Assembly (NCBI RefSeq): GCF_013362815.1
Contig: NZ_JABFVK010000001.1
Location: forward strand, 124,001-188,000
DNA from: Hamadaea sp.
GTDB taxonomy: Bacteria; Actinomycetota; Actinomycetes; Mycobacteriales; Micromonosporaceae
Length of the DNA stretch: 64,000 nucleotides
Direction of reading: 5' to 3'
Position 1 is the stretch's first letter. The number at the start of each line of letters is the position of its first letter. Below, in pieces: positions 1,709 through 47,448 of the stretch. The translations under genes were made by a program, and so were the position numbers. A model generated the notes under the pieces. It did no database searches. It had not been told where the DNA came from and saw only the letters and a program-made list of their open reading frames with translations.

Positions 1709-2920
1709 GTGGAGTTCTCGCTCGACCTCAATGAGGACCAGCGCGAGCTGCGTGACTGGGTGCACGGCTTCGCCGCCGACGCCGTCCGCCCGGCGGCCGC
1801 GGAATGGGACGAACGCGAGGAGACGCCCTGGCCGGTCCTCCAGGAGGCGGCGAAGATCGGGCTTTACGGGTTCGAATTCCTCGCCAACGCCTGGGCGGAC
1901 CCGAGCGGGCTGTCCATGTGCCTCGCCAACGAGGAGCTGTTCTGGGGCGATGCCGGCATCGCGATGTCCATCATGGGCACGTCGCTGGCGGTCGCGGCGA
2001 TCTTCGGCAACGGCGATCCCGAACAGCTGGCCGAGTGGGTGCCGCAGTGCTTCGGCACCGAGTCCGACCCGGCGGTCGCGGCGTTCTGCTCGACCGAACC
2101 GGAAGCCGGCTCCGACGTCGCCGCCATGCGTACGCGGGCGGTGTATGACGAGGCGACCGGTGAGTGGGTGCTCAACGGCCAGAAGGCGTTCGCCACCAAC
2201 GGCGGGATCGCCGCGGTGCACGTCGTCACCGCGTCCGTCGACCCCTCGCTCGGCAGCCGGGGCCAGGCCGCCTTCGTGGTCCCGCCCGGCACGCCCGGTC
2301 TGCACTCCACCCGGAAGCTGAAGAAGCTGGGACTGCGCGCCTCGCATACGGCCGACGTGTTCCTCGACGACGTCCGGCTCCCCTCGTCCTGCCTGCTCGG
2401 CGGGCGCGAGCGGCTGGAGGAGCGGCTGGCGCGGGCGCGATCCGGCGAGCGCACCGGCGGCCAGGCCTCCATGCGTACGTTCGAACTGTCCCGGCCGACC
2501 GTCGGAGCGCAGGCCCTCGGCATCGCCCGCGCGGCCTACGAGTACGCCCTGGACTACGCCAAGCAGCGCGTCCAGTTCGGCCGCCCGATCATCGAGAACC
2601 AGGGCATCGCCTTCGCGTTGGCCGACATGAAGATGGAGATCGACGCCGCCCGGCTGCTCGTCTGGCGCGCGGCCTGGATGGGCCGCAACAACCGCCCGTT
2701 CACCGCGGGCGAGGGTTCGATGTCCAAGCTCAAGGCGGGCGAAGTCGCCGTCGACGTGACCTCCAAGGCGGTGCAGATCCTCGGCGGAGCCGGCTTCACC
2801 CGGGAGCACCCGGTCGAGCGCTGGTACCGCGACGCCAAGATCTACACGATCTTCGAGGGCACCAGCGAGATCCAGCGCCTCGTCATCGCCCGCGCCATCT
2901 CCGGCCTGCCCCTGCGCTGA
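1709..2920 (+). CDS. Acyl-CoA dehydrogenase
   Basis: FAD-dependent flavoenzyme (403 aa, normal family length) that introduces the alpha-beta double bond in acyl-CoA. N-terminal helical domain (EFSLDLNEDQRELRDWV), middle beta-domain with the FAD/substrate motif AFCSTEPEAGSD, and C-terminal helical domain ending in YTIFEGTSEIQR, whose first Glu is the catalytic base of the family. The GTG start at 1709 follows a GAAGG site and lies 2 bp after the SCP2 stop. A run of about 20 residues (GRERLEERLARARSGERTGG) looks like a small surface insertion. A repeat copy begins 4 bp past the stop. Chain-length preference cannot be read from sequence. Confidence 0.93.
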   Translation: MEFSLDLNEDQRELRDWVHGFAADAVRPAAAEWDEREETPWPVLQEAAKIGLYGFEFLANAWADPSGLSMCLANEELFWGDAGIAMSIMGTSLAVAAIFGNGDPEQLAEWVPQCFGTESDPAVAAFCSTEPEAGSDVAAMRTRAVYDEATGEWVLNGQKAFATNGGIAAVHVVTASVDPSLGSRGQAAFVVPPGTPGLHSTRKLKKLGLRASHTADVFLDDVRLPSSCLLGGRERLEERLARARSGERTGGQASMRTFELSRPTVGAQALGIARAAYEYALDYAKQRVQFGRPIIENQGIAFALADMKMEIDAARLLVWRAAWMGRNNRPFTAGEGSMSKLKAGEVAVDVTSKAVQILGGAGFTREHPVERWYRDAKIYTIFEGTSEIQRLVIARAISGLPLR

Positions 2921-2924
2921 CGCG

Positions 2925-2985
2925 TTGATCATGAACCTATGGTCCCCGTCGCCCGGCGTGTCAGACCCCCAACCTCATGATCAAC
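2925..2985 (+). repeat. TGATCA-ended intergenic repeat, copy A
   Basis: Begins TTGATCATGAACC and ends TGATCAAC, with GGCGTGTC in the middle. It is an inverted, diverged partner of copy A' at 4093-4151, matching at both ends, at GGTCC, TCGCC, GGCGTGTC and the CCCC/AACC blocks. It lies 4 bp after the acyl-CoA dehydrogenase stop. Confidence 0.75.
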
Positions 2986-3103: not shown

Positions 3104-4027
3104 ATGATGTGGGCCGACCTCGTTCAGCCGTTCGCCGAAACCCAGGACGGGCTGATCACAGCCGAACAGTGTCACGCCGCGGGGCTCAGCCGGGATCAGG
3201 TAAAGCGCCTGTGCCGCAGCGGCGAGTGGCACCGCATCTTCCGCGGCGTCTATCGAGTCTGGGTCTCTGCGGCGACACGTGACGATGACATCCGGCTACA
3301 CATCCGCGCGGCACTCCTTGGAACGGGACCGCAGGCGGTCGTCGTCGGATCCAGTGCCGCCCATCTCTTCGGCCTGCCCAGCGGACAGCAGGACCTGGTT
3401 CACCTCGCGGTTCCGGGCGGAAACGGAAAACCGCGGCGGATCCAGGACGCGGCGGTGATCGTTCATCAACGCGTACTTGATGATGCTGAAGTGACCACTG
3501 TGGACGGCATGCGATGCACGACGCCGGCGCGAACGGTGGCCGGTCTTCTATTGGCCGCGGACCGATTCACCGCGGTGTCGGTCGCGGACGCCGCTCTGTA
3601 CGCGGGCCTCTTGGCCGAACCGGACCTGACGCTCGTCGAGCGGATGCTCTTTCGCCATCGCGGCGCCGTCGCCGCGCGGGAATGGCTGGAACAGGTCGAC
3701 GGACGGGCTGAGTCGCCGTTGGAGACGCGCGGCCGGTTGAGATGCGCGGACGCGGGCGTCGGGCCCGACGATCTCCAAGTGTCGCTGACCGACCGCGACG
3801 GTGCTTTCCTCGGGCGCGTCGACCTCTATTGGCATCGATATCGGCTGGTGGCTGAGGCCGACGGCGCCGAGTTCCATGACCGGCCGGAAGCCCTGTATCG
3901 CGATCGCCAACGACAGAACGGCCTGATGGCGGCCGGTTTCACCGTCGTCCGGTTCACCTGGGAGGACGTGCGGTCGCGCGGCCGCCTCCCGGCAATGGTG
4001 CGCGCGGCGATGGGTCGCCCCTTGTGA
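3104..4027 (+). CDS. AbiEi-type winged-helix + DUF559/Vsr-like nuclease-fold protein (copy 1)
   Basis: Product of 307 aa. The N-terminus (QDGLITAEQCHAAGLSRDQV through FRGVYRV) is the winged-helix domain of AbiEi antitoxins. A middle region follows (DGMRCTTPARTVAGLL). The C-terminus (VDLYW, LVAEADGAEFHDRPEALYRD, GFTVVRFTWED) matches DUF559/Vsr-like PD-(D/E)XK folds, with candidate active-site Asp, Glu and Asp. AbiEi normally pairs with an AbiEii nucleotidyltransferase, but none is present. The start ATG 3104 has CGAGG eight bases upstream; longer in-frame starts would run into the DnaA-box region. The closest relative in the window is 10345-11259, almost identical in the last domain. DNA-binding or nuclease activity is inferred. 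Confidence 0.75.
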   Translation: MMWADLVQPFAETQDGLITAEQCHAAGLSRDQVKRLCRSGEWHRIFRGVYRVWVSAATRDDDIRLHIRAALLGTGPQAVVVGSSAAHLFGLPSGQQDLVHLAVPGGNGKPRRIQDAAVIVHQRVLDDAEVTTVDGMRCTTPARTVAGLLLAADRFTAVSVADAALYAGLLAEPDLTLVERMLFRHRGAVAAREWLEQVDGRAESPLETRGRLRCADAGVGPDDLQVSLTDRDGAFLGRVDLYWHRYRLVAEADGAEFHDRPEALYRDRQRQNGLMAAGFTVVRFTWEDVRSRGRLPAMVRAAMGRPL

Positions 4028-4092: not shown

Positions 4093-4151
4093 TGATCAAG
4101 GGGTTCGGGGCGGCGACACGCCGGCGAACCGGACCCTGGGTTCATGATCAA
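4093..4151 (-). repeat. TGATCA-ended intergenic repeat, copy A' (inverted)
   Basis: Read on the minus strand it runs GTTGATCATGAACCC ... GGCGTGTC ... TTGATCA, mirroring copy A. It separates the copy-1 gene from the acyl-CoA synthetase gene and contains an ATG (4144) that should not be taken as the synthetase start. Confidence 0.7.
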
Positions 4152-4173
4152 CACGGCAGGTGGGAGGCGTCGG

Positions 4174-10073: not shown

Positions 10074-10147
10074 GTCCGCGCGGACCCTTTCCCGTCCGCG
10101 CGGACCCAGCCCTCTCCGCGCTCTCCGCGCTCTCCGCGCTCTCCGCG
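10074..10147. repeat. Short palindromes and 9-bp tandem array before unit 2
   Basis: Two copies of the perfect palindrome GTCCGCGCGGAC (10074-10085, 10094-10105) are followed by four head-to-tail copies of CTCTCCGCG (10112-10147). The last copy runs into the terminal repeat of unit 2. A different tandem array borders the other end of the unit. Confidence 0.9.
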
Positions 10148-10230
10148 CGATCATGAACTATCGGGCGTGATCGATCGGCGTGTCGTGGCCGTTGCACCCT
10201 GATCGACTCCCGAAGCAGGTGATCGACAAC
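10143..10230 (+). repeat. TGATCA-type intergenic repeat, copy B
   Basis: Starts CCGCGCGATCATGAAC, has CGGCGTGTCGTG in the middle, and ends with two TGATCGAC elements exactly 20 bp apart (10200 and 10220). Positions 10143-10187 are a perfect inverted match to 11306-11350. Confidence 0.92.
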
Positions 10231-10245
10231 GCCCGGTTGGCTTCG

Positions 10246-10302
10246 TTGTCCACAGGCCCGTTGACCTGGCCTTTCAACGGCGGACGACCCGGTTTATCCA
10301 CA
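10246..10302 (+). promoter_or_regulatory. Pair of DnaA-box-like sites upstream of copy 2
   Basis: TTGTCCACA (10246-10254) is the usual actinobacterial DnaA box, and TTATCCACA (10294-10302) is the general bacterial consensus; they lie 48 bp apart, start to start. Copy 1 has an equivalent pair at 3023-3031 and 3041-3049. DnaA binding is inferred from sequence only. Confidence 0.55.
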
Positions 10303-10344
10303 GGGATAGCCGGGCCCGCTCGACGGGGAGAAACATCGCCCGAT

Positions 10345-11259
10345 GTGAGAGATCCCATCGCGCTCCAACAAATCGCAGCGACACAACAGGGCCTAGTGAC
10401 GATGCGCCAGTGTGCGGCTGCGGGCTATACCCCGGACGACGTGAAGAAGCTCGTACGCAGCAAGTTCTGGGCACGGCTAGCCCGCGGCGTCTATCTACTC
10501 GACGCGGATCTACAGCCGGAGCCGTTTCAGAGCCGGGTCCTCGCCCGTGCAGCACAACTCGGCGCCGGCAGTCAGGCTGCCGTCGTGCTGCACGACGCGG
10601 CCGAACTGCACGGAATCAAAGGCTTACGAGACACCGATCGAATCCATCTGTCCTTGCCTGGCAACGCTGCGGTGCCCCGCCGGATGTGCCACCGTCAGGT
10701 TGTCCCACACCAGTTCGTACTTCGACCGGTCGATCTCACCATGGTCGATGGAATGCTCACTACAACCGTGGTCCGCACTGTCGCCGACCTGCTCCTGTAC
10801 GTCGATCGAATGAGCGCGGTGTCGGCCCTGGACTCGGCGCTGTTTCAGAGTCTCTTGGCTCCCGACGATCTTCCCCTGGTAGAAGGACTAATACGCGGCC
10901 GGCGCAACGCAGCTATATCGCGTACCTGGATCGGTTTGGCCGACTGGCGCTCCGAATCACCATTGGAGACCCGAGGTCGTCTTGTATGCGTAGACGCCGG
11001 GCTGCCCCCGGACGAACTGCAGGCCACGATCTGCCGGCCCGACGGCAGCATCGCCGCCCGGGCGGACATGCTGTGGCAGCGTTCGCGACTGATCGCCGAG
11101 GCCGATGGTGCCGAATTCCACGACCGTCCGGAGGCGCTCTACCGCGACCGTGAACGACAGAACGAACTGGCTGCTCTCGGTTACACCGTCGTCCGCTTCA
11201 CCTGGCAGGACACGCTTGACGGCGACCGACTGCCGTCAATGATTCGTCGATTCCTGTGA
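10345..11259 (+). CDS. AbiEi-type winged-helix + DUF559/Vsr-like nuclease-fold protein (copy 2)
   Basis: Product of 304 aa with the same design as 3104-4027. The N-terminal winged helix (QQGLVTMRQCAAAGYTPDDV, LARGVYLLD) is followed by a middle region (VDGMLTTTVVRTVADLL) and a C-terminal PD-(D/E)XK-like domain (SPLETRGRL, ADMLW, LIAEADGAEFHDRPEALYRD, YTVVRFTWQD). The C-terminal block is nearly identical to copy 1; the rest has diverged. I chose GTG 10345, which matches where homology to copy 1 begins. GGGGAG lies 14 bases upstream, which is far, so the start is uncertain. An in-frame GTG at 10180 lies within the terminal repeat and is unlikely. No AbiEii partner is present. Confidence 0.75.
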   Translation: MRDPIALQQIAATQQGLVTMRQCAAAGYTPDDVKKLVRSKFWARLARGVYLLDADLQPEPFQSRVLARAAQLGAGSQAAVVLHDAAELHGIKGLRDTDRIHLSLPGNAAVPRRMCHRQVVPHQFVLRPVDLTMVDGMLTTTVVRTVADLLLYVDRMSAVSALDSALFQSLLAPDDLPLVEGLIRGRRNAAISRTWIGLADWRSESPLETRGRLVCVDAGLPPDELQATICRPDGSIAARADMLWQRSRLIAEADGAEFHDRPEALYRDRERQNELAALGYTVVRFTWQDTLDGDRLPSMIRRFL

Positions 11260-11263
11260 ACGT

Positions 11264-11350
11264 CAGTCGATCAGGCTCGCCGGGGATTGATCAAGGCGCT
11301 CCGGACACGACACGCCGATCGATCACGCCCGATAGTTCATGATCGCGCGG
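11264..11350 (-). repeat. TGATCA-type intergenic repeat, copy B' (inverted)
   Basis: Mirror of copy B. Positions 11306-11350 match it perfectly, then TTGATCAA (11287-11294) and, 20 bp further inward, TGATCGACTG (minus strand, 11264-11273). It starts 5 bp after the stop of the copy-2 gene. Confidence 0.92.
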
Positions 11351-11448
11351 AAAGGGCAGGGCCCGCGGAAAGGGCAGGGCCCGCGGAAAGGGCAGGGCCC
11401 GCGGAAAGGGCAGGGCCCGCGGAAAGGGCGGGGCCCGCGGAAAGGGGG
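11347..11448. repeat. 18-bp tandem array after unit 2
   Basis: Five copies of GCGGAAAGGGCAGGGCCC (the fifth with one change) plus a partial sixth directly abut the outer end of copy B'. The same CCCTTTCCGCG word precedes the solo repeat at 46166, so the array seems to have grown from the repeat's flank. It lies just upstream of purD. Confidence 0.95.
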
Positions 11449-35045: not shown

Positions 35046-35858
35046 ATGACCGCCCCCGCCGCCATCACCGGTGACTTCGTCCCGGCCGGGCCAGCCCGTG
35101 GCCCCCGCCCGGCCACCGTCACCATCGGAGCCGCCTTCCAGGCCGTGGCGGTGGTGTTGCTGTTGGCGCTGATCGCGCTCGCCTGGATCAGCCGCGCCCA
35201 GTACGACGGGTTCGCCGATGAAGCCGCCCGGCTCGTCTCGGCCCGGCCGGACGAGCTGGCAGCCGAACACACCAGCAATCTGATCATGGCGGTCGTCGTG
35301 AGCGTGCTCGCCGGGGTGCCGGCGTTGTGGTTCGGCAGCACGCTCTGGCCGTTGTTTCGCGGGGCGAACGTCGCCCGCATCCTGGCCGCCGTCGGCGCCT
35401 TCGCCATCCCCGGGCTCGGCATCCTCCTGGTGATCGGAAGCTGCGTCAGCGGAATGTTCCTCGTCTTCTTCCTCGCGAGTGCGCCGTTCGAGGAAGACCC
35501 GAATATGGTCGACGACTATCCGGACGACTTCGGCGACTTCTCCGGTACGCCGTTCCAGGAGAAGCTCTGGGATCTCCAGTCGTCGGCGGCGTTCGACTGG
35601 GCAGGGTTGATGCCCGTGCTCGCGCTGCTGATCGTCGCCGCCCTCACGGTCAGCGCGATCATGTACGTGCTGCCGCCCACCAACCGCTGGTACAACCCCG
35701 CCCGGGCGGTTGCTCGCGGGCGGCCCTACCCCGTGCCGGTCTACTACCCGGTGTACTACCCGTACCCCGGCCCGCCGCCGGTCGCTCCGCCTGTTGCTCC
35801 GCTGCCGGACGCCCAGCTGCCCGTCGAACCGCCCTCGGCGGAACCGCCGACCAGTTGA
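35046..35858 (+). CDS. Membrane protein with Pro-rich tail
   Basis: A 270-aa protein with four likely transmembrane helices (AAFQAVAVVLLLALIALAWI, LIMAVVVSVLAGVPALWF, ILAAVGAFAIPGLGILLVIG with the adjoining MFLVFFLA, and LMPVLALLIVAALTVSAIMY). The 40-residue tail of Pro, Tyr, Val and Ala (PVYYPVYYPYPGPPPVAPPV) is probably cytoplasmic. No family recognised. The stop is the TGA of a TTGATCA at the edge of solo repeat C, so the last residues may have been set by insertion of that repeat. Confidence 0.68.
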   Translation: MTAPAAITGDFVPAGPARGPRPATVTIGAAFQAVAVVLLLALIALAWISRAQYDGFADEAARLVSARPDELAAEHTSNLIMAVVVSVLAGVPALWFGSTLWPLFRGANVARILAAVGAFAIPGLGILLVIGSCVSGMFLVFFLASAPFEEDPNMVDDYPDDFGDFSGTPFQEKLWDLQSSAAFDWAGLMPVLALLIVAALTVSAIMYVLPPTNRWYNPARAVARGRPYPVPVYYPVYYPYPGPPPVAPPVAPLPDAQLPVEPPSAEPPTS

Positions 35859-35938
35859 TCATGCTGTCACGGAGTTGATCAGTGCGCCCGGGACACGACA
35901 CGCCGGTCGATCAAGACCACAAGTTCATGATCAACGGG
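35855..35938 (-). repeat. TGATCA-type intergenic repeat, solo copy C
   Basis: Read on the minus strand: CCCGTTGATCATGAACTTG, then CCGGCGTGTCGTGTCC, then TGATCAACTCCG and a second TGATCAACT 20 bp on. It matches copy D at 46166-46251 almost throughout and copies B/B' at all conserved blocks, but it has no gene beside it. Both flanking genes end in its boundary TGATCA motifs. Confidence 0.9.
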
Positions 35939-46165: not shown

Positions 46166-46251
46166 CCGCGCGATCATGAACTTTCGGGCATGATCCACCG
46201 GCGTGTCGCGTCCCCGTGGCCCTGATCAACTCCGCAAGAGACTGATCAACT
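46166..46251 (+). repeat. TGATCA-type intergenic repeat, solo copy D
   Basis: CCGCGCGATCATGAACTTTC, then CACCGGCGTGTCGCGTCC, then TGATCAACTCCG and a second TGATCAACT 20 bp further. It is preceded by CCGCCCTTTCC, the same word that forms the tandem array next to copy B'. The arginine deiminase stop codon is in its final TGATCA. No gene of the AbiEi/DUF559 type is adjacent. Confidence 0.9.
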
Positions 46252-47448
46252 GAGGGGTTCGCGGGAGATCGGGCAGGACATGCATCTCGGACCGCCCCGG
46301 CCGGAGCCCAGCTCCGAGCCGGGGATCCGGATGACCTCGATGCCGGCCCGTTCCAACTGCGCATTCGTCTCGACGTTGCGCTCGTAGGCGACGCACAACC
46401 GCGGCGCGATCGCCAGCGTGTTGTTGCCGTCGTCCCATTGCTCGCGCTCCGCGGTCACCGAGTCCAGTCCGGTGTGGAGCATCCGCAACCGGTCGATCCC
46501 CATGGCTTTGGCCGCCGCGTCGAGGAACGGATCCGGGCCGCTCACGGCTGGTTCGGTCACGCCCGGGGTCAACGTGTACGCCATCAGGTCGTCGGCGATG
46601 TTCGGATACATGAGGACGGTGTCGACGTCGACCATCGTGCATACCGTGTCGAGGTGCATGGTGGCCCGGGTCTGTGCGATCGGCACCGCCAGCACGGTGT
46701 GCGCCAATGGATCGGGGTGGCCGAAGAGCGTACGGGCCAGCCGTTCCGCTCCGGCCGGAGTGGTGCGCTCCCCGACGCCGACTGCGACGACGCCGGGCGC
46801 AAGGAGCAGGACGTCCCCGCCCTCCAACGGTTCCAGCCACGGGTCGTACGCGGTAGCCACCCCGGCGAATCGCGGATGGTGCTCGTAGATGGTGTGGGTG
46901 ATGCTCGTTTCCCGGCGGCGTGCGTTCATCGCCAACGAGGTGACCGCCACGCGATCGCGGATCCACACCGAGGAGTCCCGCGTGAAGAGCAGGTTCGGCA
47001 GCGGGTCCACGACGAAGTCGAGCCGGTCCATCAGCTTGTAGACCAGGCCGGGGCCGGACGTCAGCTCTTCGTGCGCCAGTCCGGCGGTGAGGACTCGGGC
47101 GAGCCCCGACGGGTCGAGATACCCCAGATGTTCGCGTACGCGCCGCCGCAGTGAATCGCCGAGCCGCACATCGGCCAGTACGGCGTCGACGAGCTCGGCC
47201 CGGGCGGCTTCGATACCGAGCACGTCCGTGAGCAAGTCCGTGAGGTAGAGCACTTCGACGTCGTGTTCCCGCAGCCGGGCGGCGAAGGCGTCGTGCTCCT
47301 CCTGGGCCCGGCCGACCCAGGGGATGCCGTCGAAGAGGAGCGTGTCGTTGTTCCGGGGCGTCAACCGGGCCAGTTCCGGGCCGGGCCGGTGCAGGAGCAC
47401 CGTGTGCAGCCGGCCGACCTCGCTGTCCACATAGCGCACACCATCCAC
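46246..47448 (-). CDS. arcA: Arginine deiminase
   Basis: Hydrolyses arginine to citrulline and ammonia. 400 aa. The catalytic Cys is in RGGPRCMSC near the C-terminus; the catalytic His and substrate Asp/Glu are in [13 protein letters not shown] and [14 protein letters not shown]. The N-terminal [26 protein letters not shown] and [11 protein letters not shown] are family marks. No ornithine carbamoyltransferase or carbamate kinase gene is adjacent, so it is not in a full ADI operon. Its stop is the TGA of the last TGATCA in repeat D (LS-TGA). The C-terminus may have been trimmed or extended by a few residues. Confidence 0.95.

Follow-up and report, generated by a model that had tools for sequence, protein, structure and literature searches.

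Introduction

The closest described systems are the REP/REPIN-RAYT systems and the TIRtrons/TIRYT, where, as in the element reported here, a gene is enclosed by two inverted copies of a short dispersed repeat that is often palindromic and mostly intergenic. REP/RAYT-type systems may include several distinct gene–repeat pairs per genome, as well as miniature units of paired repeats (PMC3116915, PMC3733652), and the present system shares both traits. The RAYT itself is an HUH tyrosine transposase of the IS200/IS605 group. Other known proteins resemble parts of the protein studied here. I-Bth0305I, an EDxHD homing endonuclease from a phage intron, reportedly forms a dimer on its target of almost 60 bp (PMC3943268). 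AbiEi is the antitoxin of a type IV toxin–antitoxin system, Vsr is a stand-alone mismatch enzyme not known to have cognate dispersed repeats, and TnsA, a nuclease used in the transposition of Tn7, works with TnsB, C, D and E. Genes that join an AbiEi domain to a DUF559 domain are recurrent in actinobacteria; to our knowledge, no role has been ascribed to them beyond toxin–antitoxin labels. We found no description of a nuclease–repeat pairing in the open-access literature searched (titles and the beginnings of abstracts), a search that may have overlooked papers behind a paywall.

A nuclease gene between inverted repeats

The window (the whole stretch of 64,000 nucleotides of Hamadaea sp. DNA analysed) carries one gene between two repeat arms, with purA upstream and purD downstream. 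The arms, at 10142–10187 and 11306–11351, are exact reverse complements over 46 bp, and in each the matching continues inward, including two TGATC elements spaced 20 bp apart. The left repeat unit occupies 10142–10225 on the plus strand (TGATC at 10200 and 10220) and the right, inverted unit 11268–11351 on the minus strand; the inner end of either is approximate. The sole gene inside the arms is an open reading frame at 10180–11259 (plus strand), with Pfam matches to AbiEi_4 (E 4e-9) and DUF559 (E 3e-6) that each pass the cut-off, while MTES_1575 stays below its cut-off and one further match is weak and unrelated. We place the gene at 10345–11259, from a GTG start that is inferred from the preceding GGGGAGA and near which the relatives also start. 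The AbiEi_4 winged-helix part lies at 10363–10500 (residues 62–107 of the 359-aa frame) and the Vsr/EDxHD/DUF559 nuclease domain at 10957–11256, both on the plus strand. The Pfam scan found neither the Y1_Tnp domain of a RAYT in this protein nor, between the arms, a domain of any recognised transposase or recombinase, unlike in a DDE or serine/tyrosine-recombinase transposon.

Three claims of the first-pass annotation thus held: that the ends at 10143–10187 and 11306–11350 are perfect inverted copies (given there as 45 bp, actually 46), that two TGATC elements 20 bp apart follow inside each end, and that the only gene between them is of the AbiEi-type winged-helix plus DUF559/Vsr-like kind. 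One correction is that this gene does not have the repeat to itself, as the repeat occurs in 121 copies in the genome. This number was obtained with the 18-mer GATCATGAACTATCGGGC, allowing up to three mismatches (66 + 55 copies, versus 0 + 1 for the reversed control). Eleven of the copies, when aligned, have about 80 bp in common, with the likeness fading beyond. Two solo copies are located in the window, at 35850–35932 (minus strand; inner end approximate) and at 46172–46255 (plus strand; both ends approximate), each with convergent genes on either side. Perfect inverted pairs of 20-mers in the 64 kb are limited to the pair of arms 10142/11351 and one arm with the copy at about 46.2 kb. A second gene of the family, at 3122–4027 (plus strand) and about 50% identical to the first, is likewise bracketed by inverted, diverged repeat copies, at 2917–2983 (plus strand) and 4093–4159 (minus strand). 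Simple chance as the source of the arms, the repeat and the pairing is excluded by the reversed control, the flanks of control genes (see below) and the window-wide scan for inverted pairs.

Strong hairpins were predicted for four of the five repeats folded. The Hamadaea unit folds no better than its shuffled versions, so that a palindromic structure, considered as a general rule for these repeats, fails in this genus. There are nine family matches in the Hamadaea genome, of which L011, L013 and L015 lack a flanking repeat and L016 and L017 were not scored. One paralogue, L014 (contig C108), shares about 30% identity with the window protein; it has on both sides a strong palindrome that is multicopy in the genome and unrelated to the repeat of the window gene. 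L014 and its palindrome constitute a second gene–repeat system of this sort within one genome.

The predicted protein

The gene product is predicted to consist of an AbiEi-like DNA-binding part and a Vsr/EDxHD (PD-(D/E)XK-like) nuclease; that it binds and cuts DNA is inferred. The AlphaFold2 model, based on 16 sequences, has a mean pLDDT of 82.9 and a pTM of 0.73, with residues 1–8 and 52–64 below 50. In fold, the N-terminal two thirds resemble the AbiEi antitoxin (Z 12.0 over 176 residues, albeit with an rmsd of 7.5) as well as proteins of the nucleotidyltransferase fold, MenT1 among them (Z 9.9), and PADLOC AbiEi models match residues 13–189 of 311 (best E 2e-22). The last third is closest to I-Bth0305I (Z 11.3, rmsd 2.5 over 90 residues), followed by an endonuclease-like protein of Neisseria (10.0), Vsr (9.2; in keeping with the DUF559 match) and, more weakly, TnsA (6.4). 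Foldseek returned no hit for the modelled protein with E < 0.001. Residues E215, D248, E259, D261, H266 and D275 (numbering from 10324) are invariant in all 16 aligned relatives, and we infer that they make up the EDxHD active-site set.

Unlike I-Bth0305I, the family gene is not intronic, includes the AbiEi-like DNA-binding part and is tied to dispersed genomic repeats; the long target of about 60 bp and the dimer are reported for I-Bth0305I and only inferred for the family protein. The palindromes of Micromonospora measure 57–61 bp, close to the length of that target, and it is possible, by analogy, that the family protein dimerises on a palindrome of about 60 bp. Unlike an AbiEi antitoxin gene, the family gene has no adjoining AbiEii, encodes an extra nuclease domain and is flanked by repeats. 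Its neighbours are purA and purD, not the partner genes with which TnsA operates, and cognate dispersed repeats set it apart from Vsr.

Gene–repeat pairing across Micromonosporaceae

A family gene was detected at E ≤ 1e-40 in 105 out of 300 genomes of Micromonosporaceae, 99 of which have one match and six have two (with at most seven candidates scored per genome). The gene is, therefore, mostly single-copy and does not multiply with the repeats, much as one distinctive copy of the enzyme per genome is found in REPIN-RAYT systems. We compared the two flanks of each family locus (345 and 300 bp) with each other, using the flanks (300 and 300 bp) of 44 other genes of the window as controls. Among the 101 family loci with enough flank, 89 scored at least 30 for inverted repeats and eight below 25; the control genes had a median of 20.5 and a maximum of 28. 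Flanking inverted repeats are the rule for family loci. A previous reading, in which loci without GATCATGAA were taken as repeat-free (69 out of 117 scored as “none”), was overturned by this direct comparison of flank with flank, which revealed other repeat classes.

At the genome level, hits of the 14-mer TTGATCATGAASTT have a median of 14 in the 105 gene-bearing genomes versus 0 in the 195 others, and at least four hits occur in 75 of the former versus 18 of the latter, without correction for descent. Within Micromonospora (genus g4), the medians are 13 (77 gene-bearing genomes) and 3 (29 others; p 1e-4, descent again ignored). This 14-mer covers only part of the repeat classes. No more than one hit was obtained in 22 of the 105 gene-bearing genomes, some of which carry other classes. 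Conversely, three repeat-rich genomes, G022 (74 hits), G124 (46) and G146 (39), have no gene match at 1e-40. The purD gene was found in G022, where the purA–purD gap is empty, but not in G124 and G146; either the gene was lost from these three genomes or the mover is located elsewhere, both being possible. The first-pass annotation had proposed that the pairing would be refuted if related genomes showed the gene, as a rule, without flanking repeats, or if the repeats were equally common at random intergenic sites; neither was observed.

The flank repeats of eight gene copies, chained, were also searched in seven genomes, with 40 candidates scored per genome and only the best rows considered. 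None of the best rows fell mainly on the segment of another genome. Repeats were clearly multicopy in their own genome for L030 (in G030), L032 (in G012), L119 (in G040) and L014 (in the genome of the window), which, like the repeat of the window gene, recalls the multicopy flank repeats of REPIN-RAYT systems. Few rows were obtained for L036 (two in G026), L121 (one in G071) and L012 (one in its own genome), and none for L117. Family members, at several loci, pair with private repeat classes that are unrelated in sequence.

Co-evolution and exchange of gene and repeat

In Micromonospora, the flanks fall into two main classes, TGATCATG.. (ATG-type) and TGATCAAG.. (AAG-type); the former is found at 40 loci and the latter at 31, with one mixed locus and five others (n = 77). 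Among all 116 loci examined, the two flanks were of the same class in 53 of the 55 that could be scored on both sides. For pairs of loci with 93–99% identity in purD, the median identity of the nuclease gene is 89% when the repeat class is the same (40 pairs) versus 64% when it differs (44 pairs), albeit that the pairs share genomes. On the gene tree, the repeat class changes only three times, whereas shuffled classes change 23.8 times on average and 17 times at the least; on the purD tree, it changes 24 times, practically the shuffled mean (23.7), implying that the classes are distributed on the host tree as if at random. These trees comprise 75 loci, 71 of which have an assigned class, using a slightly wider pattern than for the above count of 77. 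Coherently, Mantel tests on 71 of the 75 loci (those with a readable upstream palindrome) gave a correlation of repeat similarity with gene identity of r 0.72, or 0.715 when purD is controlled for, versus −0.08 with purD after controlling for the gene. The repeat co-evolves with its gene, and the two are exchanged together, against the host background.

The class at the flank is also associated with, but does not fix, the genome-wide balance of the two classes (p 6e-6). AAG-type hits prevail in 29 of the 31 Micromonospora genomes with AAG-type flanks (the other two show the reverse), and in 20 of the 40 genomes with ATG-type flanks, where one tie was recorded. The ATG 14-mer misses subclasses, so that ATG counts may be low. 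G250 has an ATG-type flank, yet 43 AAG hits versus one ATG hit; where the resident gene is flanked by a class other than the commonest, the dispersed copies could be relics that predate a cassette swap. The dN/dS ratio of the gene ranges from 0.08 to 0.26 in 12 pairs.

Units and miniature derivatives

Copies sampled among the best matches in G030 and G012, ten per genome, have sharp edges within unrelated flanks. The gene-bearing element of G012 is 1082 bp long, with ends CCTGAATTTT..AAAATTCAGG. Eight of the ten copies sampled there, 88–123 bp in length, were recognised by script as the two ends joined with little in between, and one more, L317, by eye; at L313, there is no second arm. In this one genome, the short copies relate to the 1082-bp element as a miniature element does to its full-length parent. 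No target-site duplication was apparent among the sampled G012 copies. Unlike in REPIN-RAYT systems, the units show no GTAG tag at their edges, as judged by eye from consensus sequences for three genomes.

The purA–purD locus and repeat turnover

Both purA and purD adjoin the gene at 89 of 117 loci (a count that has the window gene twice and includes six paralogues from its own genome). This led us to reject the window locus as a freshly inserted transposon. The reading of the first-pass annotation is supported, with two corrections: transposition driven by the nuclease is inferred, and the purA–purD copy is no recent arrival. The gene is an old resident of the purA–purD gap in Micromonosporaceae that is swapped as a cassette and often lost. 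We sought purD in 30 genomes without a gene match at 1e-40 and recovered it in 27. Four of these regions contain partial or broken remnants of the gene, eight a single palindrome and seven a short gap (37–75 bp) with neither, while eight were unreadable; the empty sites between purA and purD that the first-pass annotation had suggested looking for do exist. In genus g11 (L035, L047, L053), the orientation of the gene with respect to purA–purD is reversed, which would fit the inversion expected between inverted repeats.

Turnover at solo sites was followed in the close pair G250/G270. Twenty solo palindromes were picked by class (AAG-type in G250, ATG-type in G270), a choice that favours differences. 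After dropping L162, a flank of the gene itself, and merging two mutual pairs, 17 orthologous sites remained, with left flanks 85–100% identical. By eye, three carry the same repeat, nine have another repeat in its place, in one the repeat is absent, two are decayed and two are cut by contig ends. Seven of the nine replacements are between classes and two within a class, with a different inner sequence. In-place replacement at fixed sites is the simplest reading; this is an inference, made because independent insertions into the same gaps would be improbable at that rate. No clean-ended insertion or target duplication was found, and the sole absent site (L155/L175) also misses about 100 bp of spacer. 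Thirty solo sites, including two orthologous duplicates and the gene flank L162, were classified by context: 19 lie between convergent genes, six between codirectional genes, one between divergent genes and one inside an ORF, with three undetermined.

Interpretation

On balance, we lean towards a nuclease–repeat element that works like REPIN-RAYT but with an unrelated enzyme, a parallel already drawn in the first-pass annotation that has held. The dispersed repeat, the recurrent bracketing, the private repeat families, the co-evolution, the cassette exchange, the miniature derivatives (in one genome) and the conservation of the nuclease are shown; the movement of the repeat by the nuclease is inferred, without any experiment. 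In the mechanism we propose, the protein would recognise its own class of repeat and cut it, perhaps as a dimer on a palindrome of about 60 bp. Repair or strand transfer would then spread the repeat to the 3′ ends of genes, overwriting older repeat classes there, and the gene cassette would, by the same route, replace its counterpart in the purA–purD gap. The system is not a member of REPIN-RAYT because the HUH transposase is missing, and it could be held to be of a categorically new kind because its enzyme is unrelated to any lone-acting mobility enzyme known to us. On a bolder reading, which we consider as apt to fail as to hold, it represents a new class of transposable element across Actinomycetota, with a lone AbiEi–EDxHD/Vsr nuclease as the mobility enzyme, member-specific repeats, miniature derivatives and the overwriting of rival repeats at fixed sites. 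A stricter view, in which it is a variant of the REPIN-RAYT kind, may also be defended.

Among the rival explanations, homing-type allele replacement remains possible. The nuclease would cut alleles bearing repeats of another class; these alleles would then be replaced by recombination, using either incoming or ectopic DNA, and the repeats would spread by break repair without transposition chemistry. A near fold is that of a homing endonuclease, I-Bth0305I, for which dimerisation on a target of almost 60 bp has been reported (PMC3943268); cassettes are swapped at one locus, gaps are found empty and repeats are replaced in place. Yet the gene does not split its target, since repeats persist on both sides of it, and copies in unrelated flanks share no homology that could template ectopic repair. 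An unlikely alternative is that the protein is a DNA-binding regulator, with the flanks as operators and the solo copies as hairpin terminators or regulon sites, the nuclease having no part in their spread. AbiEi antitoxins do bind inverted repeats in their own promoter, the majority of solo sites (19 out of 30, three being undetermined) are between convergent genes, and most of the folded repeats (four out of five) form strong hairpins. Against this view speak the repeats at both ends of the gene, the end-to-end derivatives of the whole element and the invariant catalytic residues; moreover, the repeat of the window's own genus folds no better than shuffles.

We deem it very unlikely that another enzyme moves the repeats and that the nuclease gene is a passenger trapped between two copies. 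In its favour, the link between protein and mobility has not been measured directly, the commonest class is often not that of the resident gene, and some repeat-rich genomes have no gene match. However, the pairing recurs with unrelated repeats and at other loci, and the class follows the gene. One candidate for such an enzyme, a RAYT, was rejected: PF01797 (Y1 transposase) was not found in the Hamadaea draft genome (97% complete) or, overall, in 18 of the 24 genomes searched, including 15 of the 19 that bear repeats; it is present in four repeat-bearing genomes (G072, G132, G196, G238). There is just as little to recommend an orphan type IV toxin–antitoxin or phage-defence gene of the AbiE type with merely incidental repeats. 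PADLOC AbiEi models do match, but there is no adjoining toxin gene (the neighbours being purA and purD), the additional domain is that of a nuclease, and co-evolution ties the repeats to the gene.

If nucleases of this family do move or convert the repeats, then unrelated enzymes have given rise to REP-like systems on two or more occasions, a PD-(D/E)XK-type nuclease is enough on its own to drive a mobile element, and a class of short dispersed repeats in the genomes of Micromonospora, Catellatospora and Hamadaea is accounted for. The natural nuclease–repeat pairs, several per genus and swapped between strains, make both recognition and mechanism directly testable.

Occurrence outside the family and further observations

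In a draw across the phylum, 22 out of 396 genomes matched at 1e-20, two of them being the Hamadaea genome itself and a Micromonospora. Thirty-one distant relatives had enough flank (29 outside Micromonosporaceae; L216 and L283 inside): in 15, the score passed the 99th percentile obtained for mixed pairs of flanks, and in three, including the gene of Nocardiopsis metallicus (L293), it exceeded the mixed-pair maximum of 69. Pairing outside the family is merely suggestive because this mixed-pair null is contaminated by shared, related repeats.

A TTRTCCACA motif, which matches the DnaA-box consensus, lies upstream of the window gene as TTATCCACA at 10294–10302 (plus strand), with another at 10246–10254. 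It occurs upstream, on the gene strand, at 98 of 104 family loci and downstream at none of the 104, and also upstream of five of six paralogues in the Hamadaea genome. The expression of the nuclease genes might, conceivably, be linked to replication.

Some draft contigs end at or near repeats or the gene (L183, L186; G190:C24, G294:C27, G115:C215), and these elements may be one cause of assembly breaks. In the window, a 9-bp tandem repeat, CTCTCCGCG, is present outside the left arm (10110–10148), and an 18-bp tandem repeat, CGCGGAAAGGGCAGGGCC, directly outside the right arm (11346–11446). At 51 of 110 loci, the TGA stop codon of the gene is contained in the terminal TGAYCA of the downstream repeat.
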